Positions 1,975-38,430 of a DNA stretch of 64,000 nucleotides are shown here, one piece after another. A model generated the notes under the pieces. That model had not been told where the DNA came from. It made no database searches and saw only the letters and a list, made by a program, of their open reading frames with translations. Each line of letters starts with the position of its first letter. Positions within the stretch are counted from its first letter, which is position 1. The stretch is from assembly GCA_019753105.1 (NCBI GenBank), contig JAIELJ010000012.1, positions 186,001-250,000 of the forward strand, given 5' to 3'. Source of the DNA: Hyphomonadaceae bacterium. GTDB taxonomy: Bacteria; Pseudomonadota; Alphaproteobacteria; Caulobacterales; Aquidulcibacteraceae. The position numbers and the translations under genes were made by a program.

Positions 1975-2064
1975 AATCGCGCCGTTGCTGCACGCGCTAA
2001 GCGATCAACCGCATTGGATCGACCATGCCTCTCGTGAAACGAGGCGAGCCCGCCTACGCTGATT
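1975..2064 (+). repeat. Intergenic repeat family, alpha copy, truncated at 5' tip
   Basis: It contains the alpha signature GCCGTTGCTGCACGCGCTAA followed by a CAACCGCATTGGATCGA block. The 3' half is degenerate and runs into the start region of the next gene. It follows the stop codon of the upstream gene by about 14 bases. Confidence 0.6.
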
Positions 2065-2095
2065 GAGGCGAGCGTTCAGAGAACAGGGCCGGCGT

Positions 2096-2515
2096 GTGAC
2101 TGCATCCATCATTGTCGTGGCGAATGCGGAGTCTACGGATCGAGAGATCATCGCGTCGGGTATCCGCGCCTTTAATGAGAGCCGCGCCGGTTGGAGCCAA
2201 GCGAGCCCGCTGGCGGTTCTGCTGAAGGACGAGAGCGGTCAAACCGTCGGCGGCCTCTGGGGGCGCACAAGTTTCGGCTGGCTGTTTGTGGAATTGTTGT
2301 TCGTACCTGAAGCGCTTAGGGGCCGTGGATATGGACTTCGAGTGTTAGAAGCAGCGGAACACACCGCCGTGGCTAGGAACTGCCGCGCTGTTTGGCTCGA
2401 CACCTATGATTTTCAGGCTGTCCCGTTTTATGTGCGGCTGGGTTACCGTGAGTTTGGAAGGCTTGAAGATTATCCGCTCGGGCATACGCGGCACTTCCTG
2501 CGCAAGGATCTCTAA
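2096..2515 (+). CDS. GNAT family N-acetyltransferase
   Basis: This is an acetyl-CoA-dependent acyltransferase of the GNAT fold. The acetyl-CoA binding motif is RGRGYG, preceded by the strand LFVELLFVPEALRG, and the C-terminus has the usual motif-B pattern (VPFYVRLGYREFGR). I chose the GTG at 2096 (M-T-A-S-I-I-V-V); a TTG at 2063 would add 11 residues and neither start has a clear ribosome site. The substrate cannot be told from the sequence. The TAA stop lies inside the start of the next repeat copy. Confidence 0.8.
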   Translation: MTASIIVVANAESTDREIIASGIRAFNESRAGWSQASPLAVLLKDESGQTVGGLWGRTSFGWLFVELLFVPEALRGRGYGLRVLEAAEHTAVARNCRAVWLDTYDFQAVPFYVRLGYREFGRLEDYPLGHTRHFLRKDL

Positions 2516-2634
2516 TGTCGTATTTCGGCGATCGTGAGCCGTCCACGCGGGTAGGGCGCAAGCGGCAGCAGTTGAGCGAGTAGGCCGGTCGCAGAGTTTC
2601 GCGCTATGACACACGCTGGCCCATTGCAGACGCT
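2514..2634 (+). repeat. Intergenic repeat family, gamma copy
   Basis: The 5' tip AATGTCGTATTTCGGCGA overlaps the TAA stop codon of the acetyltransferase gene. The centre has the gamma block (CACGCGGGTAGGGCGCAAG), then GTAGGCCGGTCGCAGAGTTT, and it ends in CTGGCCCATTGCAGACG. Confidence 0.75.
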
Positions 2635-2780
2635 AGCGTCTGAAACGCCGATGCGTTTAGATCGAAACGTAGACCCACCGCCGCGATTTTTGGAATGAAC
2701 TCAGGTCTAGTGGACAGGGGCGAGTCCACCACCGCACAGCCGGTTTCGAGCGGCTGAGCCAAGCGGCGAAATACGCGAGC

Positions 2781-3179
2781 TCAGGCAGCCTCCTCGGCAA
2801 TTCTTGCGAACACGCCGATAACTTGGTCAGCACCCGCGCGCTTGAAGGCGCCTTCTTCGACCTCGGCTGGCGTCCACATCCAGGAGTGCGGCGGGTCGTC
2901 GCGCATGGCCCATGTGGGAAACAGGCGCGATGTGATTGGCGCGGATGCAAGTCGCGTCACTTCTAGGTGCCGGTCGTCGAGCGCGATTCGAGTGAATGCT
3001 GCCTCGACAGCTGCTGCCGGACCCTCGAGGTATTGCAGGTAGAGATCGGCGCGGCACACAAGCGCGCCAGTGATGTCGTCGCGCGTGTTACAGCGGCGGG
3101 CGTCGATGAGGATGCCGTTGAGCATCGCCTCATCGAAACCGAAGGGCCGGGACGCGTACACGAGCTGTATGAGATCCAT
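2781..3179 (-). CDS. BLUF-domain blue-light sensor protein
   Basis: This 132-residue protein is a stand-alone BLUF domain, which binds FAD and senses blue light. The start (MDLIQLVYASRP) follows the family consensus; the longer frame upstream is unlikely. Expected flavin-pocket residues are present: Tyr8, Asn31, Arg33 and Gln49, with Trp90 and Met92 in the FPTWAM segment. No output domain is fused, so it would have to signal by protein contact or act as a short BLUF protein with a C-terminal helical cap. It lies 93 bases downstream of an NAD(P)-binding protein on the same strand and could be co-transcribed with it. Confidence 0.9.
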   Translation of the reverse strand: MDLIQLVYASRPFGFDEAMLNGILIDARRCNTRDDITGALVCRADLYLQYLEGPAAAVEAAFTRIALDDRHLEVTRLASAPITSRLFPTWAMRDDPPHSWMWTPAEVEEGAFKRAGADQVIGVFARIAEEAA

Positions 3180-3271
3180 GATGTATTGCCCTAAGCGCCC
3201 GCAAGTTCTGAGTCGAGTATGTCTGCCTATCACAGACGGATACGATCGTCCGTTCGAGAAATGCTCGCTCT

Positions 3272-3913
3272 TCAGCGCACAAGCACGGGCGCTTGGCGGA
3301 CGTATGCGTCTTCAGTCAGTTGCCGCACGATGAAGTCCGCGACATCCTTGCGTGAGATGAGCCCGTTTCTCCAGTCCTGTGGTCGCGTCAAAACTCGATA
3401 ACGTCCCGTGCCGCGACCATTATTGAGGACGCCGGGCCGAACAATGGTCCAGTCGAGGCCACTTTGGATGATCAAGTTTTCCTGGATATCTTTGTCGGCA
3501 TAGGCGCGGCCAAAAACGAGATCGAATCCCAGCCGTTGCAGGGGGTTGATCGCAGACCTGCTTTCCCCGGCGCCAAAACCTGTGACGCTGATTAGGCGAC
3601 GGATTCCTGCCTCTTTCATCAACGGCAAAAGCGTTGCGGTGGCCGCCGAAAACAAGTCGATTGGACCAGTCAGCATGCGCGCGTTTGCTGGAACGCCTAG
3701 TGCTTGGACGACAATTTCGGCGCCGCTCATGGCGCGCGCCACGTCAGCAGATTTGCGTGCGTCACCCACAAAAGTACGGAGCTTGTCGTGCTGGACTTGA
3801 ATGCGACCTGCGGATCGCGCGAAGGCGACAACCGAGTGTCCACGCTGTAGCGCCAAGCTGGCTGTGGCAAGTCCGATCCCGCTGCTGGCGCCCATGATTA
3901 GCACTGTCGCCAT
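3272..3913 (-). CDS. NAD(P)-binding oxidoreductase (atypical SDR / NmrA-like)
   Basis: This 213-residue protein has an N-terminal Rossmann motif MGASSGIG (about residues 6-13). The later motifs ALGVPAN, LISVTGFGAG and DWTIVRPGVL are typical of atypical short-chain dehydrogenases of the NAD(P)H-binding (SDR_a5, biliverdin-reductase-B/NmrA-like) group. A canonical YxxxK pair is not evident, so it may be a redox sensor or flavin/quinone reductase rather than an alcohol dehydrogenase. The start is the ATG at MATVLIMG. A strong hairpin lies 27 bases upstream in its leader. Confidence 0.8.
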   Translation of the reverse strand: MATVLIMGASSGIGLATASLALQRGHSVVAFARSAGRIQVQHDKLRTFVGDARKSADVARAMSGAEIVVQALGVPANARMLTGPIDLFSAATATLLPLMKEAGIRRLISVTGFGAGESRSAINPLQRLGFDLVFGRAYADKDIQENLIIQSGLDWTIVRPGVLNNGRGTGRYRVLTRPQDWRNGLISRKDVADFIVRQLTEDAYVRQAPVLVR

Positions 3914-3939
3914 GAGGTCGACTTCACTCTCCAAGAATG

Positions 3940-3982
3940 GAGCCCCTGGCGCGTGGGGCGGGGAGGGCGGCGCCAGGGGCTC
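3940..3982 (-). promoter_or_regulatory. 13-bp perfect hairpin with G-rich loop in the SDR leader
   Basis: GAGCCCCTGGCGC (3940-3952) is exactly complementary to GCGCCAGGGGCTC (3970-3982), with a 17-base loop that is very G-rich on the + strand. It sits just upstream of the start codon of the NAD(P)-binding gene. It is not followed by a T-run, so a simple intrinsic terminator is unlikely; a regulatory or stabilising leader structure is possible. Confidence 0.5.
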
Positions 3983-4122
3983 TCGATGGTTGCTGGCCCA
4001 AGGGCCGCAACACTTGAGTTACGCGCACTGGCGCGCCACGGATCAGCGCTTGTGCCAGTAGGGTGCGTGCGCTTCAGGTCGGTCTTTCGCGTAGCGTCGA
4101 AAAGTGAAACCGGCAGCCGCTG

Positions 4123-4446
4123 CTAAGCAGTCATCTGGAAAGCCGCGTACGCGGCCAGCCAGAGTGTAGTGTAGATGGCAATGATCGCTGGCTTGCCCTT
4201 AAGAGGATTTGGTAGGTCGAGCCGACGTTCGGGCGCGACCAATAGTCGAAGCCCAAAAGCAAGGCTTGCGAGTCCAACGAATCCGGTGGCGAGGAAAAAC
4301 AATTCGGTCATCAATGCGCTTATTCCGGCATCGGCCTCCAACAGCCCGATAACTGGGAAAAACGACGCACTTGCCCATACAGCGCCAACGGGAGTGACGT
4401 AGCTCCACGCAAGCAGTTTGCCAATTTCCAAGCGCGACGCTGACAT
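4123..4446 (-). CDS. Small integral membrane protein, function unknown
   Basis: This frame encodes about 107 residues, nearly all hydrophobic, with probably four membrane helices (for example FFLATGFVGLASLAFGLRLL and IIAIYTTLWLAAYAAF). The start at MSASRLEIG is a judgement; in-frame ATGs at 4503 and further upstream exist and no start has a strong ribosome site. The C-terminus has a PNPLKGKPA loop before the last helix. The family is not recognised with certainty. Confidence 0.6.
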   Translation of the reverse strand: MSASRLEIGKLLAWSYVTPVGAVWASASFFPVIGLLEADAGISALMTELFFLATGFVGLASLAFGLRLLVAPERRLDLPNPLKGKPAIIAIYTTLWLAAYAAFQMTA

Positions 4447-4617
4447 CTTAAGGCCCACTGTATGTACAACGTCTGTACGGCGGGGCGAGGCTGGTGGATC
4501 CATATAACGGTGGGTCACGTGAGTGAGGCCGAGCCTGATTATCGCCTCGCGTGAACAAGCATCAGAAGACACTGCAGCGAATTCTTTTCGGCGGCGTCGG
4601 CTATCCAATTGACGCGG

Positions 4618-5061
4618 TCAGACGTGAAAGGCGGCTACGCAAAGAGAGAGGGCGGCCGCGCATGAAAGCGGCCATCGCAACTGCATGAACCACGCAGGCA
4701 CGAGGGCGGATTTGACTGCGATCGCATCTATCACCAAGACCGCGAGCAAACCGGTCGCCGTAAGCGCATGCCCATATGGCGCCGGGGCCAATAATGCCGA
4801 CCAGCCGAGTAATTGCGGGACTACGCTCATGCCCAGTTTGGCGGCGCGCGGGTGGGGCGTCGGTGACGCGATCGCGAGACCCCAATGAACGCCACCAAGA
4901 AAAGACAGGATCGTAGCGCCGTACGCGAGCAGGGCAAAAGACGCGTCGTTGCGCATAGAGTCTGGCGCGACGAACACCAACGCGGCGAGCGCGACAAAAG
5001 GTACAAGACCGAGATAGCCTAGCGTTGACGCGGCTAAAGGCGTTCGTTCATGCGCGCTCAT
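4618..5061 (-). CDS. DUF3429 family membrane protein
   Basis: This is a 147-residue membrane protein matching the DUF3429 family by its N-terminal LGYLGLVPF motif and the SFLGGVHWG motif, which carries a conserved His-Trp. About four to five helices are visible. Members are widespread in Alphaproteobacteria and have no assigned function. The start is the ATG at MSAHERTP; an upstream GTG would add five residues. It lies between another membrane protein and the COQ7-like gene, all on the minus strand. Confidence 0.75.
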   Translation of the reverse strand: MSAHERTPLAASTLGYLGLVPFVALAALVFVAPDSMRNDASFALLAYGATILSFLGGVHWGLAIASPTPHPRAAKLGMSVVPQLLGWSALLAPAPYGHALTATGLLAVLVIDAIAVKSALVPAWFMQLRWPLSCAAALSLCVAAFHV

Positions 5062-5115
5062 TGGTTTGGACCCCACATGCGTTGTTGCGCACCAAAACGA
5101 GGCGGCGAAGCAAAA

Positions 5116-5694
5116 TCAGACATGCCGCGCGATTGTTACCGCAAAGGCAGAACCGGCGCTCACGAGTCTGGTCCAGGCGGCGAGCATAATTCCTGGCGCT
5201 GCTTGGCGCCTGTGCGATGCGTCGTTGCGATGCGCCACTTCGTCCTGGCGCCAACCATCAAGCATTGAGGTCAAGGAGGTGTCGCCGTTATCCGCTCGAA
5301 GGCGGTCGATTTGCTCCTGATAATGCTGGTCCACGAATGTCTCCACCGCCTCGATCGTCGCGAAGACTGCATCTCGGCCCATCAGTCCGGGCACGGCGCC
5401 CGTCATCCATCCAAGTATGCGCCATAACCAAACGAGCCGTGAGCGCCTCTCAGCGGGGACAATAGCGCTGACTTCACGCAGGTGGCGGGACTCTGTGTCC
5501 ATGTGAGCGCGGGCGAACGCCCGCACCTCAGGGTCGCGCGACGTGGCGAGCACGCCTCTATAAATCCAGACTGCTCCGGTCTCGCCCGCGTGATCCGTTC
5601 GTAACGCAGCCCAGACCCACACAGGCCAATCGGCTTCCGGGCGACTGACTGCGCGCTGCGTTTCCAAGCACAACTCAGACTGAGCCGTGATCAC
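5116..5694 (-). CDS. COQ7-like diiron demethoxyubiquinone hydroxylase family protein
   Basis: This 192-residue protein has the complete carboxylate-bridged diiron ligand set of the COQ7/UbiF-type family. The ligands are Glu38 (DHAGETGA), Glu68 and His71 (TESRHL), Glu118 in a helix with FVDQHY, and Glu152/His155 (DEVAH). COQ7 hydroxylates demethoxyubiquinone in ubiquinone synthesis. It overlaps the upstream alternative oxidase gene by 4 bases (ATGA), so the two are translationally coupled. Given that partner, it could supply or remodel the quinol used by the oxidase (inference), or be the organism's only ubiquinone C6 hydroxylase. Confidence 0.85.
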   Translation of the reverse strand: MITAQSELCLETQRAVSRPEADWPVWVWAALRTDHAGETGAVWIYRGVLATSRDPEVRAFARAHMDTESRHLREVSAIVPAERRSRLVWLWRILGWMTGAVPGLMGRDAVFATIEAVETFVDQHYQEQIDRLRADNGDTSLTSMLDGWRQDEVAHRNDASHRRQAAPGIMLAAWTRLVSAGSAFAVTIARHV

Positions 5695-6383
5695 GCTTGT
5701 GCTCCGTCGAGCCGGCTACGCGCGGTTGCAACCTCACGGGGACGCATCTTCGTGCGCGACGACCTTAACTCGTCCGCAAACTGGTGGTTGACGTCGCGAT
5801 GTCCTGCTTCGTCGGCGCGCACCGCTAAGATGACGTCGCGCAGGCGGGCATTTACAGGGAGGCCCCAATAGCGGATGGCGATCTCCGGCGCCGGGGGATT
5901 GTCCGCGCCGCCGCGATCGATCTCGGCAAGGTAGGCAGTATAACTGACGACCGCTTCTTCTTCGAAATAGCCAACCAATCGATGCGCGGTTCGTGGCGCA
6001 AAAAGATAGAGCACGAAGAACGCATTGAAGAACAAGCCTTGCGCCAGCAGCACGAGCGCTCGTTCGAATGGGCTTGGCTGGGCGACAGCAATGAATGTCA
6101 TCAAGTGCATGCGCTCATTCTCGGCCTCGTCGAGAAGCGTTTTGATCCAACCCCTGTCGTCTTGCATGCGGCGCAGGCTTTTTAGGTGGTTCAGCATCCC
6201 GCCGACCATGCCAGGCACAGCCGCCACGGTTTCCAAGACTACAGCGCGATGGCCGTAGCGTTTCCTGAAGAAAGCATCGGCGAAGAGGCGTAGGAAACGC
6301 GTAAGCATAAGCGCAATGCGGTCGGACCAGTCAGTAGGAATTCGATGCGACTTAAGCTCGACCTGATCGGCACGGGGGGACAC
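5691..6383 (-). CDS. aox: Alternative oxidase (cyanide-insensitive ubiquinol oxidase)
   Basis: This 230-residue membrane-bound diiron quinol oxidase reduces oxygen to water without pumping protons. Iron ligands and family motifs are intact: LETVAAVPGMVGG (Glu51), NERMHL (Glu90, His93), FEEEAVVSYT (about residue 140) and RADEAGHRDVNH (about residues 190-200). Two amphipathic to hydrophobic helices (ALVLLAQGLFFNAFFVLYLF) fit the membrane-binding region. The start is a GTG with AAGGAG 7 bases upstream. It heads a two-gene unit with the COQ7-like gene. Bacterial AOX occurs in some Alphaproteobacteria. Confidence 0.92.
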   Translation of the reverse strand: MSPRADQVELKSHRIPTDWSDRIALMLTRFLRLFADAFFRKRYGHRAVVLETVAAVPGMVGGMLNHLKSLRRMQDDRGWIKTLLDEAENERMHLMTFIAVAQPSPFERALVLLAQGLFFNAFFVLYLFAPRTAHRLVGYFEEEAVVSYTAYLAEIDRGGADNPPAPEIAIRYWGLPVNARLRDVILAVRADEAGHRDVNHQFADELRSSRTKMRPREVATARSRLDGAQA

Positions 6384-6632
6384 GACTTGCTCCTTGTTGT
6401 CGCGGACGGCGCATCGGAAACCTGACTTTTACGCGCGAGATGAGCCCTTCAGACCTGTGAGATAAGCGCAAACAGAGTTTAGGCTCGAAGGCGCATTGCC
6501 GCAGTGCGGCGCTAGGGCGCGACGTTGGGCGCCTTCAACGGGCGTGTCCGCTATTGCAGGGCGAGCAGCGAGACGGCTGCCATCGACGACAGGCGCCGCG
6601 AACTTGAGGCATCGATCCGATTGTAACGAATA

Positions 6633-6653
6633 GCCGGCACTCGCGGAGCCGGC
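6633..6653 (-). terminator. Hairpin downstream of the integrase gene
   Basis: GCCGGC arms (6633-6638 and 6648-6653) enclose a 9-base loop, 10 bases beyond the integrase stop codon on the minus strand, followed by TATTCG. The T-run is poor, so this is only a possible terminator. Confidence 0.35.
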
Positions 6654-6662
6654 CATTCACGC

Positions 6663-7307
6663 TTAAAGATCTACGCCTTCCGAAATGGCGATGGCGTCAT
6701 CGACCTCCACGCCCAGGTAGCGCACGGTGCTTTCAAGCTTTGTGTGTCCGAGGAGAAGTTGAACCGCCCGCAGATTGCCAGTCTTCCGATAGATCAAAGC
6801 AGCCTTGGTACGACGCATCGAATGCGTGCCATAGGTCGCTGGGTTTAGGCCGATCGACGCAACCCAGCCTTGGACGATGCGCGCATACTGGCGTGTCGAG
6901 AGGTGAGGTGACCTCGCGAGCCGGCTCGGAAACAGGTAGTCGCCCGAACGCAAGTACTCGCGCCGCATCTGTTTCAGTACAGCGCTGCGGGTTTGCTCGG
7001 TGATCTCGAACTGCACCGGGCGGCCGGTCTTCTTTTGAACGACGATGCCACGTGTCTTCACCTCGCCCCCGGCCGCCACATCGTCGACCTTGAGGCGCGT
7101 GAGGTCGCAAGCACGCAGTTTGCTGTCGATCGCCAGATTAAAAAGCGCGAGATCGCGAACGCGCTTCTTCAATTCCAACCTGGCGCGGATCGACCAGACC
7201 TCTTTCATCTTGAGAGCGGGCTTCTGGCCCGTCAGCTTTCCACCGGTAATGCGACGTTGGCGCTTGGCGGCGCTGAGCGGTGTTTCGGTGATAATCTCCA
7301 AGGTCAT
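6663..7307 (-). CDS. Solitary short tyrosine recombinase (integrase catalytic domain only)
   Basis: This 214-residue protein is essentially a catalytic domain. Visible active-site elements are the first Arg in SKLRACDLTRL, the HSMRR box (H-x-x-R), the LLGHTKLESTVRYLGVE block with the second His, and the nucleophilic Tyr in RYLGV. An N-terminal core-binding (SAM-like) domain is missing compared with phage integrases of over 300 residues. The start is the ATG at MTLEIITETP. No excisionase, att repeats or phage genes are nearby. A 5'-truncated copy of the intergenic repeat lies about 65 bases upstream. Confidence 0.85.
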   Translation of the reverse strand: MTLEIITETPLSAAKRQRRITGGKLTGQKPALKMKEVWSIRARLELKKRVRDLALFNLAIDSKLRACDLTRLKVDDVAAGGEVKTRGIVVQKKTGRPVQFEITEQTRSAVLKQMRREYLRSGDYLFPSRLARSPHLSTRQYARIVQGWVASIGLNPATYGTHSMRRTKAALIYRKTGNLRAVQLLLGHTKLESTVRYLGVEVDDAIAISEGVDL

Positions 7308-7372
7308 GGCGTGAGCCTTCTGCTCACCCGCCCGCACAGTACGAGCGGGGAGGGAAGCCTACGCCTCAGACC

Positions 7373-7446
7373 GAATGACCGCCATTGAGAGACTAGGCCA
7401 GTCGCGAAATGTGATCAGATGTCGTGGGCTGGCCCTTTCCGGTCAC
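7373..7446 (+). repeat. Intergenic repeat family, alpha copy, 5' half missing
   Basis: It starts at AATGACCGCCATTGAGAGAC and continues with TAGGCCAGTCGCGAAATGTG, then GGGCTGGCCCTTTCCGGTC. The 5' tip block is absent. It lies between the divergent 5' end of the integrase and the 3' end of the patatin gene. Confidence 0.7.
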
Positions 7447-7510
7447 TAGCTCGTGTGTCTCGCGCTTCCAATGTCTGATGGAGCAGGAGACTCCGGCTCC
7501 TTGTGGGGCA

Positions 7511-13349: not shown

Positions 13350-14201
13350 ATGAAAAGTCCGGCGCACACACAGCTTCTAAGTGAGGCTCTCATTGCGCCG
13401 GGCGATAAGGTCACATTGCATGCGCTCTCCGCCTCCAGACAAATGCAGGGTGTGGATCGCCGCATCATTTATTGCCATGGTTTGCCGGGTTCGCCGGAAG
13501 AACTCTCTGCGTTTGAAGCATCAACGCCCCTGCAGCACGTTCGTGCTCTCGATCGACTTGGGCATCACAGGGGAAACTTCGAAGACAGCGTCTTATCAGC
13601 CTTCGATGGATTGGGGGGCGACGAGCCGGTTACAGTTGTAGGGTTCTCGCTCGGCGCCATGTCGGCAGTGCACATAGCGGCAAGGCGCGGCCTTCTGGTC
13701 CGCAAGCTCATCTTGATCTCGCCTGCGGCGCCGCTGCAACTCGGCAACTTCCTGCCTGCCATGGCCGGGCGACCGGTTTTCGAAGCAGCACAAGTGGGCG
13801 ATTGGGCGCTCCGCCTCCTCACAGCCTCGCAAGCGTCGTTGGTGGCGCTCGCCCCGAAGCTTGCGATCAAGACGATGTTCCGTGCGAGTCCAGTTGCCGA
13901 GTTGGGGCTGCTAGCTTCGCCCCGCTTCGTTGACCTCGTAGTACGTGGGTTGCGTACTTGCTTCGGGCTGCGCCAAGCAGCGTATCGAAGCGAACTGCAC
14001 GCTTATGTTCAGCCATGGGCCCATGTGCTTGATGATATTAGGTGTGAGACCGAAATTTGGAGCGGCAGTCATGACGACTGGGCGCCGCCGGCGATGAGTG
14101 AGGCGCTAAAGGAGCGGCTTGGCGATCGCGCTTCTCTAAACGTTTGCCAGGGCCTCGGGCATTACTCGACTTTGCGCACAGCGTTGTCGAGGTTGGACTG
14201 A
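13350..14201 (+). CDS. Alpha/beta hydrolase
   Basis: This 283-residue protein has the alpha/beta hydrolase signatures HGLPGSPEEL (oxyanion region), nucleophile elbow GFSLGAMS (Ser100), a late Asp (SGSHDDW, about residue 248) and the catalytic His in GLGHYSTL (about residue 271). No signal peptide is visible, so it is likely cytosolic. Substrate unknown. Its TGA stop sits exactly at the start of the next repeat copy. Confidence 0.85.
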   Translation: MKSPAHTQLLSEALIAPGDKVTLHALSASRQMQGVDRRIIYCHGLPGSPEELSAFEASTPLQHVRALDRLGHHRGNFEDSVLSAFDGLGGDEPVTVVGFSLGAMSAVHIAARRGLLVRKLILISPAAPLQLGNFLPAMAGRPVFEAAQVGDWALRLLTASQASLVALAPKLAIKTMFRASPVAELGLLASPRFVDLVVRGLRTCFGLRQAAYRSELHAYVQPWAHVLDDIRCETEIWSGSHDDWAPPAMSEALKERLGDRASLNVCQGLGHYSTLRTALSRLD

Positions 14202-14317
14202 CCGCTTTCGGCGTGACGCGCCAGTCGCCGGCGGCTGACGCCAGCGTCACGTTTTGAGCGACCAAGCCATTCGTGATTTCGTTCGCTACGTCCTAGGTTG
14301 GCCCATTCCGGACAGTC
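14199..14317 (+). repeat. Intergenic repeat family, beta copy
   Basis: It begins with TGACCGCTTTCGGCG, which includes the stop codon of the hydrolase gene. It then has the beta mini-hairpin TGACGCCAGCGTCA, GAGCGACCAAGCCATTCGTG and TAGGTTGGCCCATTCCGGAC at the 3' end. Confidence 0.8.
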
Positions 14318-17910: not shown

Positions 17911-18033
17911 GCAGCCTCGGCGAAATCAGGCCGGTCCACCCGCCGGCTGACGCAGGTGTCGCATTTTGAGCGACTAGGCCATTCGTGATTTTGCGTGCTA
18001 CGGCCTACGATGGCCCGAAGCGGACGCTGTCGA
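17911..18033 (+). repeat. Intergenic repeat family, beta copy
   Basis: It shows CTCGGCGAAATCAGGCC, the TGACGCAGGTGTCG mini-hairpin, GAGCGACTAGGCCATTCGTG and GGCCTACGATGGCCCGAAGC. TAGGCC and GGCCTA form the internal stem. It lies upstream of the OsmC gene. Confidence 0.8.
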
Positions 18034-18197: not shown

Positions 18198-18223
18198 TGC
18201 AACAGACTAGCGGTCTACCCCGC

Positions 18224-18345
18224 CAATGTCTGCTTCCGGCGACATCACGCCGTAGCGAAGCAACCCTGATCTACGGCACGAATTGAGCGCGTCGGTCGTT
18301 CGACAAAAATTGCGATTTGCACGGCCATAGCCCGAGCGAGCGTTG
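18224..18345 (+). repeat. Intergenic repeat family, beta copy
   Basis: It starts AATGTCTGCTTCCGGCGACA, then TCACGCCGTAGCGAAG, GGCACGAATTGAGCGCGTCG and ends CACGGCCATAGCCCGAGCG. The 3' end is more diverged than in other copies. Confidence 0.7.
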
Positions 18346-19905: not shown

Positions 19906-19913
19906 GAACCGCG

Positions 19914-20035
19914 AATGGCAGCTTCCGGCGAACTTGAGCCGTTCACGTGGGCAGGGCGCGGCAGGCCGATTCGGATCGACTAGGTCATTCGCGGAATTTT
20001 GTACAATGGCCTACCTTGGCCCATTTGCGACACTC
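19914..20035 (+). repeat. Intergenic repeat family, gamma copy
   Basis: The 5' tip is AATGGCAGCTTCCGGCGAAC. The centre is the gamma block TTCACGTGGGCAGGGCGCGG. The internal stem TAGGTCATT/AATGGCCTA pairs over nine positions with one G-T pair. The 3' end is CTTGGCCCATTTGCGACACT. It begins 8 bases after the stop codon of the SnoaL-like gene. Confidence 0.8.
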
Positions 20036-20494: not shown

Positions 20495-20517
20495 GCATTA
20501 GCGAGCGCGACGCCGCG

Positions 20518-20640
20518 AATGTCTGGCTTCGGCGACAACGCGCCGTTACCGCGGGCGCTAAGTCACTGACCGCATTGGAGCGAGTACGCCTGTCGCGAAA
20601 ATGTGCGCGATGACCTAGGCTGGCCCTTAGCAGCCGTTGT
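20518..20640 (+). repeat. Intergenic repeat family, alpha copy
   Basis: It starts AATGTCTGGCTTCGGCGACA, then GCGCCGTTACCGCGGGCGCT, AAGTCACTGACCGCATTGGA and GCGAGTACGCCTGTCGCG. It ends GACCTAGGCTGGCCCTTAGC. Confidence 0.8.
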
Positions 20641-22455: not shown

Positions 22456-22600
22456 GCTCCACGCGGTTTTGGGCGTACATGCATCTATAGTTCTCGATTT
22501 ACACCCGCAGGCAATGGACTCGACATTTCTGCGATGAGGAAAATGCGCTGTATGCGCCTGGAATGCCTTCGTTTGCCCACATTGGGAACGAGGCCTGCTA

Positions 22601-22721
22601 CGACCGCAATCGCCGAGAACACGCCTTTGCTGCACGCGCTAAGCAACTGACCGCAATCGAGAGAGTAGGCCGGTCGCAGAAATCGACGCTACGGCCTACC
22701 GTGGCCCAAAGCCGCCAATGG
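22601..22721 (+). repeat. Intergenic repeat family, alpha copy with perfect internal hairpin
   Basis: GTAGGCCG (22665-22672) and CGGCCTAC (22692-22699) are exact complements, with GTCG/CGAC pairing inside. TTGCT/AGCAA form a second small stem upstream. The 3' end TGGCCCAAAGCCGCCAATGG is one of the best-preserved ends. Confidence 0.82.
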
Positions 22722-24471: not shown

Positions 24472-24510
24472 TGGGGCTAACATCTACTATCTGGGAGAAT
24501 TTAAGTTGCC

Positions 24511-24634
24511 GAAAGGCAGATTTCGGCGAACTCAGGCCAATCGCCGTCGCCTGACGCAAGCGTCACGAATTGAGCGAGCAAGCCGTTCGTGATTTTGTAC
24601 GCTAAGGCGCACGTTGGCCCCTACCGGACGCTTG
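24511..24634 (+). repeat. Intergenic repeat family, beta copy
   Basis: It starts AAGGCAGATTTCGGCGAACT. It carries the clean mini-hairpin TGACGCAAGCGTCA, GAGCGAGCAAGCCGTTCGTG and ends ACGTTGGCCCCTACCGGACG. Confidence 0.8.
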
Positions 24635-25068: not shown

Positions 25069-25073
25069 CCGCA

Positions 25074-25140
25074 ACGACCGCTATCGGCGAGATTAGGCCG
25101 TTGCTGCGACCGCTAAGCGATTTGCAGACGTTGGGGCACA
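25074..25140 (+). repeat. Intergenic repeat family, internally deleted alpha copy
   Basis: It keeps the 5' tip (CGCTATCGGCGAGATTAGG) and the alpha block CCGTTGCTGCGACCGCTAAG, then jumps to GACGTTGGGGCAC. The internal hairpin region is deleted. Confidence 0.55.
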
Positions 25141-25156
25141 AGCTTACGCTGCTGTT

Positions 25157-25339
25157 ATGATGTCTCCGCCATCACTCCCAAAGGACGTGAAGGACCGAGC
25201 GTTCCGCGCACACAATTGCGAACTTGGCATCCTGCTGGCCGACACAAGTGCGTTCTTAGAAGCCTGTCGGTCCGACCGAGTCCGCGTGTTGGGATGGGAG
25301 CTTTGGGTCGTCGACCACCGGTGGGACGCCGAGATACAC
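25157..25339 (+). pseudogene. Possible 5' remnant of an unrelated gene
   Basis: A frame starting at M-M-S-P-P-S-L-P-K-D reads through a protein-like segment (ILLADTSAFLEACRSDRVRV, then LGWELWVVDHRW) up to about 25335. There the coding signal changes to the TIR gene in another frame. It may be the start of a different gene joined to the TIR gene by a deletion. Confidence 0.35.
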
Positions 25340-26136
25340 GCGATGTGGCTGGGCGCATCTACGACGCTCTGGAGAAGCGCTTTGGTCGTGATCGGCTCTT
25401 CAAGGATGTCGATAATCTCCGCCCAGGTGCCGAGTTCGGCGAACACATCAAGGCATTACTTCCACGCTGCCGCGTGGCTTTGATCTTAATCGGTCCGAAT
25501 TGGGTGAACGCGGTCGATGAGGAGGGCCGGCGCCGGCTGGACGACCCCCACGATTGGGTGCGTGTGGAGATTGAGATCGCTTTGGCCGCTAGCGGGCTGG
25601 ATGTTGTGCCTGTTCTGGTGAACGGCGCGAGCATGCCGCGTGCCAACGAACTGCCGGAAAGCCTGCATCCGCTGTTGCGTCGTCACGCTGCCTCGATCCG
25701 ACCCGATCCGGATTTTCGTGACGACATTGATCGCCTCGCAACTGCTCTGCGCGCAAGCGTGCGCACAGGCTTGTTGGACCTAGGCGTCGCCAGCGCACAG
25801 CGCCAAGTAGTGGCCCCTAAGGTAGGGGCGTTCTGGCTTAGCTTGCTGAGTTTCGCTGGTGCGATCGCCGCCGTCGAGACCTGGTATATTCCAGTCGTTT
25901 GGGAATCGCGCCACCTGATCGGGGTGCCGTTCCCCGGAACGAGCTACGATGACGTAGAAGGATACTTCGTCGGGCTTCCTGATGTCGTTCAGGTCGCGTT
26001 GAGCTTTATTGGCGGCGGCTTAGTCTTTAGAGCGCTGACGGGGTCGAAGCCAACGCCAGCCGTTTTGCTGCTGTTGCTTTTCACAAGCCTCGTCGTTTGG
26101 TCCATCGCCAACTTTATGGCCAGTAGCGCGGTGTAG
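25294..26136 (+). CDS. TIR-domain membrane protein, N-terminus missing or altered
   Basis: From about 25327 the frame matches a bacterial TIR domain: RRDTRDVAGRIYDALEKRFG, RLFKDVDNLRPGAEF, ALILIGPNWV, RRRLDDPHDWVRVEIEIAL (with the putative catalytic Glu) and VVPVLVNGASMP. The first beta strand (usually F-I-S-Y-R-R) is absent; the upstream sequence in this frame is not protein-like. After the TIR domain come three predicted membrane helices. TIR proteins are often NAD-cleaving defence effectors. The start is uncertain (ATG 25294 or TTG 25216), and the gene may be inactive. Confidence 0.6.
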   Translation: MGALGRRPPVGRRDTRDVAGRIYDALEKRFGRDRLFKDVDNLRPGAEFGEHIKALLPRCRVALILIGPNWVNAVDEEGRRRLDDPHDWVRVEIEIALAASGLDVVPVLVNGASMPRANELPESLHPLLRRHAASIRPDPDFRDDIDRLATALRASVRTGLLDLGVASAQRQVVAPKVGAFWLSLLSFAGAIAAVETWYIPVVWESRHLIGVPFPGTSYDDVEGYFVGLPDVVQVALSFIGGGLVFRALTGSKPTPAVLLLLLFTSLVVWSIANFMASSAV

Positions 26137-26289
26137 GCTACTGCTAATCCGACACCGCAGATCTTTTTCCACTTTCTGAACGTGTTGACGCCGGCCGCTA
26201 CTGCTCTCACGGCAGTCTTGGCAGTCAAGCTGCAGCGGTCCACTGTCACTTAGTCGGAAAGCTAGGCTTTCAAGATTGCGCATCCCCGA

Positions 26290-26460
26290 TCTGTCTTCGG
26301 CGATGCCGCGCCGGATCGATGCAGACATTACGAACCACAAAGTTCGCGTGTCTCCGCCAGCCAGACTGCGAGGGGTAAGCCACTGGCTGCAATGGAGAGA
26401 GTAGGCCGGTCGCAGAATTTCGCGCTACGACGCACGCTGGCCCGTTCAAGCCACTCGCGC
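26290..26460 (+). repeat. Intergenic repeat family, alpha copy with an internal insertion
   Basis: The 5' tip TCTGTCTTCGGCGATGCC is separated from the alpha block (TAAGCCACTGGCTGCAATGG, then AGAGAGTAGGCCGGTCGCAG) by about 75 bases, twice the usual distance. It ends ACGCTGGCCCGTTCAAGC. The 420-base gap between the TIR and SCO genes holds nothing else that I recognise. Confidence 0.7.
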
Positions 26461-29344: not shown

Positions 29345-29834
29345 CCCCCCGAGGGAATAAAAGTGCGAGCGGCGGAAAGTTTGCGACTTCATTCGCCCAG
29401 CTGGCGAGTTCACGTAATGGCAGGTTCGCGCGCCCGCTTGCTGCGCCTCCGACGGTGCGCTGAGCAGCACCATACATTGGGGCAGGACGGACACCCGACC
29501 GCAGCTGTGATCGGGCGAAGAGTTGTGCGAATTTGCGACGTTCGCTCTGCAAACTTCCGACAGCGCTAGCGAACTCCGCGAGACGCCGACGCCGCAGGTT
29601 AGCGGAATTACGCAAGACGACTGAACGCGCGCCAGACTTTGAGGTGCCGGGATAGCGCTCGAATGAAAAGCCGCTCCGTGCGGGGGACGCTCGGAGCGGC
29701 AAAGCAATCAAGCCTTCCGCAGTTTTTGGTTGCGGGCAACTGATTGATCAGCGCGTTGGCGCTGGTGTCAGAAGCCAAGCACTTCGAAAGCTGACGAGCA
29801 TTGACCCTTATCAATTGCTCGATGGCCTAAGGTC
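29345..29834. other. Intergenic region upstream of the oxidase operon
   Basis: About 490 bases lie between the oxidase A start and the next repeat copy. No convincing protein-coding frame is seen on either strand. It holds one terminator-like hairpin at 29670-29700 and presumably the operon promoter. Confidence 0.4.
29670..29700 (-). terminator. Terminator-like hairpin with no gene in front of it
   Basis: GCCGCTCCG and CGGAGCGGC arms form a perfect 9-bp stem with a 13-base loop. On the minus strand it is followed by TTTTC, as in an intrinsic terminator. No protein-coding gene ends here, so it may close a small RNA or be a decayed gene's terminator. Confidence 0.45.
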
Positions 29835-29952
29835 ACAATTCAGCGAGATCACGTCATTGCTGCGTGCACTAAGCCACTGACCGCAATCGAGAGAGTAGGC
29901 CAGTCGCAGAATTTGTCGTTATGTCGGGCTCTGGCCCGTTTGCGACATTGGC
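29835..29952 (+). repeat. Intergenic repeat family, alpha copy
   Basis: It contains CATTGCTGCGTGCACTAAGC, CACTGACCGCAATCGAGAGA and GTAGGCCAGTCGCAGAATTT, then TCTGGCCCGTTTGCGACATT. The hairpin block is nearly identical to the copy at 35345 (both with GTCGTTATGTCGGGCTCTGG), so these two are recent relatives. Confidence 0.82.
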
Positions 29953-31379: not shown

Positions 31380-31480
31380 AAATCTTCTCTCGTTACTGAC
31401 CGGCGTCTTGGGCGTCTTTACTCGGCGGGCTGTGGCGTAGTCTCGCAGTTGTGCGGTCGACAGAGGTTTTGAAATCTTCG

Positions 31481-31590
31481 AATGTCGCTTTCCGGCGAAC
31501 GCGAGCCAGTGGAGCAGGGCACAAGCCAATGTCCGAGTTGGATCGACAATGCCAGTCGCTGAATTGTCGTTTTGCGCTCGAGCCCGACAC
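31481..31590 (+). repeat. Intergenic repeat family, gamma copy, diverged 3' end
   Basis: It starts AATGTCGCTTTCCGGCGAAC, then GAGCCAGTGGAGCAGGGCAC and TCGACAATGCCAGTCGCTGA. It ends GCTCGAGCCCGACACG instead of the usual GGCCC block. Confidence 0.7.
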
Positions 31591-31641: not shown

Positions 31642-31716
31642 CGGCGGGTAGCTTAACGGTTAGAGCGGGCGCCTTATAAGCGCTTGATCCGGGTTCAACT
31701 CCCGGCCTGCCGACCA
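31642..31716 (+). tRNA. tRNA-Ile (anticodon UAU)
   Basis: This is a 75-base cloverleaf. The acceptor arm is CGGCGGG/CCTGCCG with one G-T pair, the D stem GCTT/GAGC, and the anticodon stem GGCGC/GCGCT with loop CTTATAA. The T stem is CCGGG/CCCGG with loop TTCAACT, followed by discriminator A and an encoded CCA. The loop places TAT at positions 34-36, which reads AUA codons as isoleucine. Most bacteria read AUA with a lysidine-modified CAU tRNA instead, so this isoacceptor is unusual. The repeat copy starts on the next base after CCA. Confidence 0.88.
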
Positions 31717-31834
31717 GGCATCTTTCGGCGACAAGCGACGCGGTTCAGGCCTGACGCGCGTGGCACGAATTGAGTGCCTAGGCCATTCGTGACTTTGTAC
31801 GCGATGGCCGATGTTGGCCCAAAGCTGCCGTTGC
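31717..31834 (+). repeat. Intergenic repeat family, beta copy abutting a tRNA
   Basis: It starts directly after the tRNA CCA end with GGCATCTTTCGGCGACAAG. It continues GGCACGAATTGAGTGCCTAG and GCCATTCGTGACTTTGTACG, then ATGTTGGCCCAAAGCTGCCG. GGCCAT/ATGGCC form the internal stem. Confidence 0.82.
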
Positions 31835-32731: not shown

Positions 32732-32954
32732 GTGACGGTACAGAATAATACAAGCAGCACCCCCAGGGTAGGCTGCGATATTAGGATGCACGCGATGGCG
32801 TGCAAGCGCGCGCCGGTCGCGCCACGCATTTGATGAGCCTGTTCACGAATGGTCCAAAGTCGACAATAACGACATGCGACGACAATGCGCATGATTGACA
32901 TTTTTGCTGGTGAAACCGCTCCTGACCGCCTCCGGGTTGACAGTGCCAGTGAAG

Positions 32955-33027
32955 TCGTCTGTCGGCGAACTCACGCCGTAGCGCGCCAAGGCTGATCAAT
33001 GTCTCGAATTGAGCAATCGGGCCGGTT
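32955..33027 (+). repeat. Intergenic repeat family, beta copy, 3' part missing
   Basis: It shows GTCTGTCGGCGAACTCACG, CCGTAGCGCGCCAAGGCTGA and CTCGAATTGAGCAATCGGGC. It is cut where the 3' end of the convergent small gene begins. Confidence 0.65.
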
Positions 33028-33267: not shown

Positions 33268-33335
33268 AAGCGGCAGCTTTCGGCGATCTCGCGCCGAAGC
33301 GCGCGCAGTATTACCGGCGACACGATTGTACCGAC
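33268..33335 (+). repeat. 5' fragment of the intergenic repeat
   Basis: It contains AAGCGGCAGCTTTCGGCGAT, then CTCGCGCCGAAGCGCG, which is the 5' tip and first block. The hairpin and 3' end are absent. Confidence 0.5.
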
Positions 33336-33418
33336 CCAGCCCTTCGAAATTGGAATGGCTCGTGGGCGGGTATTGCCCGTGATTTGCTTGAGTGAGTGCT
33401 ACGCGTAGAATTGATCGC

Positions 33419-33937: not shown

Positions 33938-33961
33938 TCCGCTCTAGTCGCAAACATTGCG

Positions 33962-34080
33962 AACGTCTCGGACCGGCGAAATCGTGCCGTTGCTGTGTGC
34001 GGTAAGTGACTGGCGGCAATCGAGAGAGTAGGTCACTCCCATAAGTCTTGGCTGCGACGCACGCCAGGGGCCAGCAAGCC
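33962..34080 (+). repeat. Intergenic repeat family, alpha copy
   Basis: It contains CTCGGACCGGCGAAATCGTG, CCGTTGCTGTGTGCGGTAAG and GCGGCAATCGAGAGAGTAGG, then CGCCAGGGGCCAGCAAGC. The last block is diverged. It lies between two convergent genes. Confidence 0.72.
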
Positions 34081-34091
34081 ATCGCCGTTCA

Positions 34092-35243: not shown

Positions 35244-35344
35244 AACAGTCCTTGAGACTCATCGAAGGCCGCTCGATTCCCACAGTGCGCGGTCGTTGTC
35301 AGTAGGCTCCATAAGGCAAGTTTCCGGCGGCCAGTGGTTGCCAC

Positions 35345-35468
35345 CAATGTCGCCTTCCGGCGACAACGCGCCATTGCTGCGAGCGCTAAGCCACTGGCCG
35401 CAATGGAGCGAGTAAGCCGGTCGCAGAATTTGTCGTTATGTCGGGCTCTGGCCCATTCGAGCCGGGTG
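35345..35468 (+). repeat. Intergenic repeat family, alpha copy, well preserved
   Basis: It starts AATGTCGCCTTCCGGCGACA and has CGCGCCATTGCTGCGAGCGC, TAAGCCACTGGCCGCAATGG and AGTAAGCCGGTCGCAGAATT. It ends CTCTGGCCCATTCGAGCC. Confidence 0.85.
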
Positions 35469-35998
35469 CGATGAGCCGAGTTGCGGCTGCCTTGAGGCTC
35501 ATATCTGCCGCTCGCGCCGCCCTTAGAACCACAATGGAATTGAGAAAGCTCTTACTGTGATGTCATGGCCCGCTAGCGTTCCGCTTGGGATGGCGGGTGG
35601 CAGGCATGGACCGGATTGGGCAAGCGGCGGCTTGAAACTTGCGGCGCTGGCTTAACGTTCTGATCGTGCGGCCGCCTGCGCAGAGATTTGCCTGCCGATT
35701 GATCGCCGAAAAGGCAGTTGTCGGCGATCGTAAGCGGAATTGCCGAGCACGGCACGAGCCGGTGTTCTTGAGGTCACTCGGAGCATCCTGCAAATCGCGA
35801 CCGCCGTGGGCTCAGACCCGCTGCCAGCTGCAAACCAAAGAAGCGCTAATCGCAATGCTCGGGATAGGCACGTTGGCGCGCTATTTTAATGGATGCGATG
35901 TGCATCCCTTCTAACCATGCGGTCGCACAGCGCTTGATAGGTCTGGTACACCTTTATTCTCACGATATATGAACGCCGGCAACACTCAGAGGGTTTTC
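35469..35998. other. Intergenic region with a possible repeat fragment
   Basis: No convincing gene is seen in these 530 bases. A possible 5' fragment of the repeat (AAAGGCAGTTGTCGGCGATC at about 35713) is present. Short frames on both strands lack ribosome sites. Confidence 0.4.
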
Positions 35999-37153
35999 AT
36001 GGCGAGCAACGGCTACATCAAGGGGCCCGACGGTCGTTATCGGAGCCTTGATGGCACTCGCTCCGAAGGCATGTTTGGCGACAATGCAATCTACGACCAG
36101 TTTGGCAACAAGGTTGGCGAAGTGAAACGCAGCATACTCGGCGACGTTAGCATAGAGGAAGACTCGGTATTTTTCCCACAGAGCAACAAGGCAGATCACG
36201 TAAGCCAATCCACTGGTGGGGGTGGCGAGTATCAGGCAGAGTTAGCGTTCAAGATTATCGGCGTGGCATTGATTGCGTTGCTGGTGCTTGGGGTTGCTTC
36301 AGCGACATACAATTTCTTAGGAGGCGCTATAGCGTCAGTCTCCAGCGTTTTGAGGCAAACCAGCCGTGTCCAAATCGCTGATGGGCCTAATGCTGAAACA
36401 CCTCGCCCGCCGTCACTCCAGCCTTCAAATGTAGCGGACGCATGGGACCGGGCGCTAGCGGATGACACTTGGGACGCCTATGCTCGCTTTCGTATTCAAA
36501 ATCCTAATGGCGATGATGCGTATCCGTCACTGGAGCGAATGCAAACGAGTTTTCGGGCAATCGCGCCTTACCGACGTTGGTGGATGTTTGCCGGCCGCGT
36601 TGAGAACGATGTGATGGGCCGAGAAGCGCCGCTTGATGACGCACGACTCTCGAATACCACTTATCGCAAAGGGCAACTCATCATATTTCACGTCGTTCCA
36701 ACGGAAGCAGGGCAAAATCCATATGTCGCGACCTGGGTAGAGACCCCATCTCCGCCGCATTTTGAGTTTCTGCCTAGATCAGCGGTACGATCAGTTTCAG
36801 ACGAAGCCTCAGTCAATGCATTGGATGGGGTGCCGATGTATTTGTCGAACCTTCCAGTTTGTCGCACTTCGCCAGAAACGCCGTTCCAGCGCCAAATCAA
36901 CCCGATCGTCGTTCCCGCCTCCGCCAACGGCTTGCAACCCGGCGAGGCTGTTCAGGTGACTTTGGTTTTAGACGAGACTGGTGAGATCGCAGAGATCGTC
37001 GCCGACGGCACTCGCCAGATGCGCACGCCTTCCTTCGCTTCCCTCGCCCATACCTACGTCGAACGCATGCCAATTTCATGCCGACCCGCAGTCAGCGCGT
37101 TCTATGGACCGGTTAGTTGGATGTATCCCATTGTTTTTCAGGCCATAGACTGA
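35999..37153 (+). CDS. Hypothetical membrane-anchored protein
   Basis: This is 384 residues from the ATG at M-A-S-N-G-Y-I-K-G-P, preceded by AGAGGG. The N-terminal cytoplasmic part (about 80 residues) contains GPDGRYRSLDGTRSEGMFGD, a segment with the look of a short repeat-like cytoplasmic motif. One membrane helix follows (IIGVALIALLVLGVASATY), then a large extracytoplasmic domain. The last 90 residues (VTLVLDETGEIAEIVADGTR) recall the TonB/energy-transducer C-terminal pattern, but this is weak. No firm family. Confidence 0.6.
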   Translation: MASNGYIKGPDGRYRSLDGTRSEGMFGDNAIYDQFGNKVGEVKRSILGDVSIEEDSVFFPQSNKADHVSQSTGGGGEYQAELAFKIIGVALIALLVLGVASATYNFLGGAIASVSSVLRQTSRVQIADGPNAETPRPPSLQPSNVADAWDRALADDTWDAYARFRIQNPNGDDAYPSLERMQTSFRAIAPYRRWWMFAGRVENDVMGREAPLDDARLSNTTYRKGQLIIFHVVPTEAGQNPYVATWVETPSPPHFEFLPRSAVRSVSDEASVNALDGVPMYLSNLPVCRTSPETPFQRQINPIVVPASANGLQPGEAVQVTLVLDETGEIAEIVADGTRQMRTPSFASLAHTYVERMPISCRPAVSAFYGPVSWMYPIVFQAID

Positions 37154-37438
37154 AATCAATGACCGCTTTCTATCGAAGAAGCGTTTGATATTGGACCAGC
37201 AGCAGAGCTTCTGATGTTGATCCGCAATGCCAAGCCACGGGGGCACAACGCGCCGATGGACGCAGTGATCTGCAATTCGTGACACAGAAATCCTGCTCCC
37301 AGTGCGCACGAGCCGACCGCATTGGGCTGATAGCTTCACAGCCGCGATGTAGTTGGCGGTTATTTCCTATGAACTGACAGGTCAGGCCCCGTGTGTCGAG
37401 AATGCTCTACAAAGCCGACATCGCCGGCAAGGTGGCCT

Positions 37439-37558
37439 GCGACAGCCATCGGCGAAACCGCGCCGGTTGTGAGCACGCTAAGCCACTGACCGCAATCGAG
37501 AGAGTTGGCCGTTCGTAAAAATCTGTCCGCTGACCACGTTGGCCCAAAGCGGGCCTCC
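37439..37558 (+). repeat. Intergenic repeat family, alpha/beta hybrid copy
   Basis: It starts GCGACAGCCATCGGCGAAAC, has the alpha block TAAGCCACTGACCGCAATCG, then TTGGCCGTTCGTAAAAATCT, which is the beta form. It ends ACGTTGGCCCAAAGCGGGCC. The 285 bases before it hold no clear gene; a very weak repeat-like stretch may lie at 37225-37330. Confidence 0.78.
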
Positions 37559-37591
37559 TCAACTGCCGTCGCTTCTGCCAAAAGATGCTCG

Positions 37592-38263
37592 ATGGAAGTG
37601 ATTATCTTCAGCCTGAAGTACACTGGGCCGCTGCTAGCCTTCGGCCTATGTATTTTCGGTTGGATAAAGGTTTGGTCTCGCCCGGATTACGTTTTTGCGC
37701 TGATCTTTGCCGCCGGCTTGTCGGTCTGTTTCCCGATTGCTGGACTCTTCGCGCCGGCGCAGCCGCCAATCGTCTGGAGTGTAGCAGGCGGCTACATTTC
37801 GATGGATTGGTTCGCATTTTGGGGAACCGTTACCGCTCTGGTGTTCGCGGCGCCCGCGCTAAGCATCGTCGCGATCCGTCAACGCATGGGCATGCGCGAA
37901 CGGTCTGATGACGGTGCAACGGGAATCTTCAGTTTCAAGGGCCGTATGGACCGGGTTGGCTTCTTTATTTCCAGCATGTCCGTTACGGTCGCGTTGGTGT
38001 TTTGGGCCGTTGTTCACGCGGCAGCTGACGCCCTCCTTGGAGATGTTGCCGGCGCCGGGCCCGCCGCAATGGTGAGTGGCACGGGACTTGTCGTCACTCT
38101 GCCAATTGTCATCTGGATCTACTTGGCGGGCTTTGTACGCCGGTTGCACGACATCGGCGCGTCCGCGTGGTGGTCAGTGCTGTGCCTGCCATTGCTCCCG
38201 CTATCCAGCTTGGTTTTGCTATTTACGCCGAGCCAAAGGGGAGAAAATCGGTTCGGGCCGTGA
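37592..38263 (+). CDS. DUF805 family membrane protein
   Basis: This is about 223 residues from M-E-V-I-I-F-S-L-K-Y. Three hydrophobic N-terminal helices precede a DUF805 domain that starts FSFKGRMDRVGFFI. It ends FVRRLHDIGASAWWSVLCLP and FTPSQRGENRFGP, both hallmark motifs of the family. Its function is unknown. The N-terminal extra helices are an addition to the usual short DUF805 protein. Confidence 0.85.
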   Translation: MEVIIFSLKYTGPLLAFGLCIFGWIKVWSRPDYVFALIFAAGLSVCFPIAGLFAPAQPPIVWSVAGGYISMDWFAFWGTVTALVFAAPALSIVAIRQRMGMRERSDDGATGIFSFKGRMDRVGFFISSMSVTVALVFWAVVHAAADALLGDVAGAGPAAMVSGTGLVVTLPIVIWIYLAGFVRRLHDIGASAWWSVLCLPLLPLSSLVLLFTPSQRGENRFGP

Positions 38264-38296
38264 CTCGGCCAATGTCCGCTCTCGAAGGAGAATGAG

Positions 38297-38383
38297 GTGA
38301 GCCGCCGTCATGCCATCACGGTCTGGGTCGTGTTGGGTTTGATTGTCGTGTTCCTCGGCTTTCGCCTTTGGTTTGGGTGGTGA
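38297..38383 (+). CDS. 28-residue membrane microprotein
   Basis: A tiny frame starts at a GTG with a strong GAAGGAG site 6 bases upstream and reads M-S-R-R-H-A-I-T-V-W, then VVLGLIVVFLGFRLWFGW. It is a basic N-terminus plus one membrane helix, 34 bases after the DUF805 stop, so probably the same transcript. The ribosome site makes it more credible than most frames of this length. Confidence 0.55.
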   Translation: MSRRHAITVWVVLGLIVVFLGFRLWFGW

Positions 38384-38388
38384 CCACC

Positions 38389-38430
38389 GAGTGGCCGCTT
38401 TCGGCGAGTTTTAGCCGGTGCCGGAGATTG
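38389..38430 (+). repeat. 5' fragment of the intergenic repeat, rightmost copy
   Basis: AGTGGCCGCTTTCGGCGAGT followed by TTTAGCCGGTGCCGG matches the 5' tip and first block. It is the last trace of the family found in the window. Confidence 0.5.

Follow-up and report, generated by a model that had tools for sequence, protein, structure and literature searches.

Uniformly oriented intergenic repeats as probable recombination sites of replication-aligned gene-cassette arrays in a Hyphomonadaceae bacterium

Introduction

What keeps every copy of a short intergenic repeat pointing the same way through a long series of unrelated genes? The question is raised by a 64,000-nucleotide stretch of a Hyphomonadaceae bacterium (contig JAIELJ010000012.1, here C3:186001-250000 and termed the window; the genome comprises 3.87 Mb in 20 contigs). 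Its left half is filled with an intergenic repeat of about 125 bp. The original prediction, made from the letters of the window, had seen in it an unnamed family with inverted ends, and had proposed either a non-autonomous mobile element or a structured RNA. The repeat family was confirmed as real, and its most striking property, the uniform direction of all copies, had been overlooked. Comparison across genomes establishes the family, its orientation, the shuffling of its units and the apparent position of the breakpoints. These observations lead us to propose, with a probability of roughly 0.7, that the repeats serve gene-cassette arrays as their recombination sites. We infer that a site-specific recombinase acts on them, probably one of the tyrosine family, with double-stranded DNA as the substrate. 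The picture of replication-aligned cassette arrays given below derives its mechanism from comparative breakpoints, and its enzyme is a candidate only.

The repeat family in the window

The window was first searched with nhmmer and a profile that 14 of its copies had seeded; this profile was refined with 48 copies from the own genome and then run on all loci. In the resulting search of 73 loci, the refined profile returned 20 window copies at E ≤ 0.01 (1956-37554), all 20 on the + strand. A smaller search gave 21, the extra one being a weak partial copy at 38388-38440 (+ strand, columns 2-56, E 0.005) that is absent from the 73-locus list. With the first profile, the significant window copies were likewise on the + strand only, and two − strand rows had E values of 0.74 and 1.8. 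The right 25 kb of the window hold no repeats. Copies had been predicted from 2.0 to 38.4 kb, which is correct within the window, but the array reaches about 20 kb further left and starts near C3:165947. The five short fragments predicted alongside the longer copies are present, although not as a separate class: they are partial copies of the same family.

The claim that the two ends are inverted complements was borne out. Of the 29 positions in the consensus 5' 29-mer, 22 agree with the reverse-complemented 3' 29-mer, a match equalled by 1 of 5000 shuffles, and the consensus ends read AATGTC and GACATT. The motif TTTCGGCGA occurs nine times on both strands against 1.55 expected, a count that none of 100 shuffles reached; five of the nine lie inside listed copies and four elsewhere. 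A further, third site of 5' type inside the body was considered and dropped, the similarity being not above shuffles (P 0.16). The expectation that the repeat belongs to no known family also held at the level of Rfam: the scan of the window returned only two tRNAs, and the repeat matched no family at the gathering threshold. No description of the repeat family was found among the top results of a literature search in openly licensed PMC papers.

Orientation and replication

Across 73 loci in 13 genomes, 472 of 473 copies follow the majority orientation of their own locus; in 10 of these loci the agreement is trivial, as they hold a single copy. All 70 copies in 20 further loci are in the orientation of their locus as well.

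Positive GC skew marks the leading strand. When read in array orientation with the repeats masked, GC skew was positive in all 51 loci that hold four or more copies, the class of loci covered by this test, although loci of one genome are not independent. Unmasked, it was positive in 7 of 7 new loci with at least four copies, and two new loci with a single copy each showed negative skew. The complete genome G027 allowed a view of both replication arms. Its skew changes sign near 0.1-0.29 and 2.0-2.19 Mb; array orientation is − in the negative-skew arm and + in the positive-skew arm, and one of 20 skew samples, at 2.95 Mb, was opposite in sign to its arm. In the same genome (L087-L126), GGGNAGGG motifs, which we take to be like FtsK-orienting motifs, lay on the strand predicted by GC skew in nearly all samples that had any.

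Shuffling of units and position of the breakpoints

The 150-bp flanks of 258 near-full copies were compared in 33,152 pairs, with same-locus pairs less than 300 bp apart left out. Sixteen pairs had only the upstream flank in common, 11 only the downstream flank, and none both. In the upstream-sharing pairs, the 5' arms were more similar than the background (0.72 vs 0.52, P 0.0002), and the body (0.54) and the 3' arm (0.55) stayed near it. The downstream-sharing pairs gave the reverse picture, with elevated identity in the body (0.64 vs 0.52, P 0.0006) and in the 3' arm (0.79 vs 0.50, P 0.0002, six pairs), and a 5' arm (0.56) not above background. These identities indicate that the 5' arm moves together with the upstream gene and the rest of the repeat, body and 3' arm, with the downstream one, the switch being at the core CGGCGA.

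The ends of shared blocks were then located by a strict blastn among all loci, which yielded 185 blocks. Thirteen of these were inverted, and the ends were analysed for the 81 that were non-inverted and reached ≥85% identity. Fourteen left and 18 right ends fell inside a repeat in both loci. As a null, chimeras of real repeats were simulated with uniform breakpoints, including the extension into conserved columns. Right ends accumulated at columns 18-24 (11 of 18, against 8.4% simulated; P 2.6e-8) and left ends at columns 13-17 (7 of 14, against 14.9%; P 0.002), P values that are optimistic because some ends come from the same gene family. In held-out loci, the same column windows took up three of four right ends (P 0.002) and four of eight left ends (P 0.02). 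The breakpoints map to columns 15-22, the conserved core limiting the resolution.

Individual cases added detail. A 1,305-bp block of G027 is 99.5% identical in two arrays and runs from exactly CGGCGA to exactly TGGCCC, and the arms beyond these cores are unrelated. The block speaks for exchange at the cores, but does not match a unit with core A (CGGCGA) at both sides. A second case in this genome, consisting of 309-bp identical units next to N in the assembly, is weak. Both data sets together contain 17 blocks that lie inverted to the array; for 15 of them, neither end falls inside a repeat in both loci. The remaining two represent one gene family with 78.5% identity. In G027 its gene and arm are joined to core A, and in G023, at two near-identical places, the gene is turned and the same arm is joined to core B (TGGCCC); the homology stops at the core each time in both genomes. 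This arrangement would match the outcome expected of exchange between two inverted cores.

The non-autonomous mobile element of the original prediction found no support in these data. It would take the form of a transposon like a miniature inverted-repeat transposable element (MITE), with the segment from CGGCGA to TGGCCC inserted in a palindromic target (AATGTCCGCTTT/AAAGCGGACATT) and composites carrying genes. The terminal inverted repeats (22/29) and the G027 block with its different outside arms fit such an element, as do 144 left-only and 18 right-only copies, many of the left-only ones being possibly alignments cut at the variable 3' half. Transposition is hard to reconcile, however, with one orientation per locus (472/473), with the lack of a single pair among 33,152 that kept both flanks, with a repeat body that moves with the downstream gene, and with strong copies restricted to a few clusters. 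We therefore consider a transposon unlikely.

The breakpoint peak might instead be passive. Homologous or illegitimate recombination in accessory islands would then break by chance where an old repeat is most conserved. The cores are indeed the most conserved columns (background identity 0.97 at columns 15-20), and only 32 block ends qualify. On the other hand, the uniform-breakpoint simulation on real repeats, which allowed for conserved-column extension, did not produce the peak, and the bodies are only about 0.52 identical between copies, which is low for RecA-type recombination. Such relics appear quite improbable.

Candidate recombinases

The window encodes a short XerD-like tyrosine recombinase with a catalytic domain (6663-7307, − strand, 214 amino acids; PF00589 was found on the longer frame 6663-7337). 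In an alignment with XerD, the catalytic R, HxxR, H and Y were matched at the positions that we take to be the catalytic ones. The gene adjoins a short site at 7372-7447 (+ strand, repeat columns 49-124), and in G011 and G023 the stretch upstream of it is again found next to partial repeats. A tblastn search of array-oriented loci yielded nine rows in eight loci. Five rows, of which two are partial, reached 89% identity or more, and all five were opposite to the array strand; among the remaining four, two relatives of 63-68% followed the array strand, and the other two were short fragments opposite to it. Among 22 genomes of the genus, the four with a relative of at least 77% carry more repeats (P 0.008), but any gene is more frequent in larger arrays. 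The family is also widespread on plasmids, with 442 plasmid records. Taken as the array enzyme, this recombinase is a weak candidate.

Other tyrosine recombinases occur in or near arrays. At L180 and L190 (G027:61634 and 67757), two proteins of 350-360 amino acids are each followed by a repeat within about 100 nt. At C3:149811-150386 (L079), about 16 kb left of the array, lies a broken relative of the window recombinase with one in-frame TGA. A 308-amino-acid recombinase, found in three equal-score copies by the arrays of G023 (the two that were read are identical), was dropped as what is presumably an insertion-sequence accessory gene.

The integron integrase was absent at the level of TIGR02249: none of 37 genomes and none of nine others, 30 genus genomes included and several incomplete, scored above the cut-off of 265, the best score being 105.3 bits (G028). 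The cited account of the integron site attC describes two inverted simple sites, RYYYAAC/GTTRRRY, of 57-141 bp in total, folded as the bottom strand and lying downstream of the gene (PMC3053210). With about 125 bp and two inverted simple sites, our element is within this size range. True integron arrays without an integrase, which we take to be the clusters of attC sites lacking integron integrases (CALINs), would with divergent attC sites account for the co-oriented direct repeats, for the mostly single gene per unit and for an orientation that follows replication. But the consensus is without RYYYAAC/GTTRRRY, a conserved hairpin is absent, the complementarity of the arms is no greater within a copy than between copies (0.499 vs 0.491), and IntI is above the cut-off in 0 of 46 genomes, so that divergent integrons seem very improbable, and identity with attC itself was rejected on the core, fold and integrase results.

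The structured RNA of the original prediction was rejected, as RNAalifold gave four pairs with 14 copies and three with 46, without any two-sided change, and dinucleotide-shuffle z-scores (46 copies, both strands, RNA and DNA parameters) averaged −0.26 to −0.67, with 15-20 of 46 below −1.

Proposed mechanism

Because the copies keep one orientation, the units are shuffled, the breakpoints lie in the core and the arms travel with the genes, the repeat appears to behave as a cassette recombination site. Each repeat would consist of a body of about 85 bp flanked by one core-type site in two inverted copies. Site A, at the 5' end, would comprise the arm AATGTCCGCTTT and the core CGGCGA; site B, at the 3' end, the core TGGCCC and the arm AATGCGGACATT. 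Exchange would take place mainly in core A (columns 15-20), so that the usual mobile unit would contain CGGCGA, the body, the 3' arm, the following gene or genes, and the 5' arm of the repeat after them. Core B shows no excess of ends over the null that would mark a second main site, yet three observations need it, and it was probably used at least sometimes. A gene unit could then flip between A and B without any change in the direction of the repeats, and such inversion would explain why 254 of 635 array genes lie against the array. Repeated exchange would build long arrays of unrelated genes, with all sites pointing one way, along the direction of replication.

Several points weigh against recombination at cassette sites. 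Neither excision nor a circle was observed. Most block ends lie elsewhere than inside a repeat in both loci, and within the repeat some fall outside the cores (e.g., columns 26-31, 38, 55, 65 and 97). Ends at core B are at the level of the null (left 2/14 and 1/8, right 2/18 and 0/4). The flank-sharing pairs are few and, since gene families recur, partly non-independent; some of the downstream-sharing ones have no body in common. The inversion case rests on one gene family at 78.5% identity, and the orientation of the arrays could stem from selection instead of mechanism. Finally, a relative of the window recombinase is missing at E ≤ 1e-20 from the array-rich genomes G008, G018 and G020, and no enzyme common to all array genomes was found.

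Distribution of the repeat

The original prediction had looked for more than 50 genomic copies with conserved structure. The number was surpassed, with 91 covariance-model matches at E ≤ 1 in the own genome, but a conserved structure found no support. The strong matches lie almost all in a few oriented clusters, namely at 166-224 kb of C3 (+), 148-205 kb of C1 (−), 95-99, 168-188 and 251 kb of C6 (+), on C19 (+), and at 439-442 kb of C2 (−). The stronger lone copies outside clusters are at C2:251397 (E 1.2e-6) and C5:32803 (E 3.5e-5), with weaker ones elsewhere.

Outside one genus the repeat family is almost absent. Within it, 25 of 30 genomes had one match or more at E ≤ 1e-4 (675 matches in total, with up to 117 places scored per genome). 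Elsewhere in the bacterial family, two of seven genomes matched, with one and three matches, and none of 24 genomes from other families of the order did. A class-wide sample of 144 genomes under stricter filters gave a single matching genome, our own (0 of the 143 others). There were no matches in a plasmid search with one repeat copy or in a viral-contig search with two patterns. Palindromes of a similar kind may occur in sphingomonads.

Contents of the arrays

Within loci of four or more copies, a crude hexamer gene finder was applied to 375 stretches between repeats that measured 150 bp or longer. Their median length is 815 bp; 43 contained no gene, 217 one gene, 60 two, and 55 three or more. 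By strand, 381 genes run along the array and 254 opposite to it. Where the unit held a single gene and this gene ran along the array (147 cases), a median of 8 nt separated its stop codon from the repeat that follows.

The window illustrates this layout, all of its nhmmer repeats being on the + strand. The first copy, at 1956-2063 (columns 3-110), is followed by a GNAT gene (2063-2515) whose stop lies inside the 5' arm of the near-full repeat at 2512-2634. Beside the recombinase, a run of − strand genes at 2781-6383 encodes BLUF, NAD-binding, DUF3429, COQ7 and alternative oxidase proteins; parts of this run recur in L149 (G008) and L047 (C1). Similarly to the GNAT gene, a hydrolase gene (13350-14201) has its stop in the 5' arm of the repeat at 14196-14316. 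Next come 17916-18028 (columns 14-124), a degenerate repeat at 18223-18341, and the copies at 19912-20034, 20516-20638, 22599-22719 and 24510-24632. Two partial repeats, the left-only 25072-25126 (columns 3-57) and the right-only 26367-26455 (columns 36-124), enclose a TIR-domain gene, so that 25072-26455 has the layout of a composite element. Further repeats are found at 29827-29949 and, as a partial copy, at 31479-31567 (columns 2-90). Between the latter and the repeat at 31717-31832 lies a tRNA-Ile gene (31642-31716, anticodon TAT), directly at whose 3' end this next repeat begins. The series closes with partial copies at 32952-33026 (columns 5-79) and 33268-33350 (columns 3-85), a repeat at 33960-34064 (columns 2-106), and those at 35344-35463 and 37438-37554. 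A tRNA-Thr gene (GGT, 38789-38863, − strand) is located right at the array end, and tRNA genes (Ser, Trp, Val, Met) were seen in 6 of 56 other array loci scanned. The genes of the window include GNAT acetyltransferases, a TIR-domain protein, a beta-lactamase-family hydrolase, an FGE-sulfatase and efflux components, besides the BLUF, COQ7 and alternative oxidase genes.

Comparison with known systems

Like MITEs, REP, ERIC and RIME, our element is a short intergenic repeat with inverted ends in many copies. Unlike these, it is clustered, keeps one orientation and is exchanged with its neighbour gene; the two groups are set apart by their descriptions and by the lack of an Rfam match.

A closer parallel is offered by dif modules, which the cited passages describe as gene modules between XerC/XerD sites with a 6-bp spacer, with inversions between sites (PMC13141974). 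As far as this account of Acinetobacter plasmids goes, both systems appear to have modules between inverse sites, arms round a short centre and much shuffling, and module inversion may have its counterpart in the one inverted unit of the repeat arrays. In contrast to dif modules, our arrays are chromosomal, with a compound 125-bp site, a conserved body and a single direction of the compound site. The site also looks unlike what we take to be the dif consensus.

Integrons are the classic example of genes being stockpiled as cassettes. According to the passages cited, sedentary integrons are preferentially oriented, with the attC bottom strand on the leading-strand template (PMC11023631). Within the scope of that account and of the one on attC, sedentary chromosomal integrons and our arrays share long co-oriented series of mostly single-gene units, sites of about 125 bp made of two inverted simple sites, the shuffling of units and an orientation tied to replication. 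Our repeat differs by having neither the attC core nor a conserved hairpin, several arrays are present per genome, and the integron integrase was not found in the 46 genomes. The polarity of the unit is different, too. An integron cassette is a gene plus its downstream site, with the crossover at the far end of the site. Here, the site would travel 5' of the majority (+) genes because the main crossover (columns 15-20) would be at the repeat end adjoining the upstream gene; genes on the opposite strand would fit the integron scheme. Because four tested defining features were not found, the array is not classed as an integron, despite its integron-like working.

Tentatively, and with slightly less than an even chance in our estimate, the arrays may represent a third, independent kind of cassette array beside integrons and dif modules. 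Its hallmarks would be a near genus-specific, double-stranded compound site with two inverted cores, a non-IntI tyrosine recombinase, replication-locked arrays, a site 5' of most genes, and units flipping between the cores. If this is true, cassette stockpiling probably evolved more than once, arriving at the same architecture with different sites and probably another enzyme. The arrays would then form a reservoir of exchangeable genes that is presumably unlikely to be visible to attC-based tools, and the reason why cassette arrays are aligned with replication would become testable.

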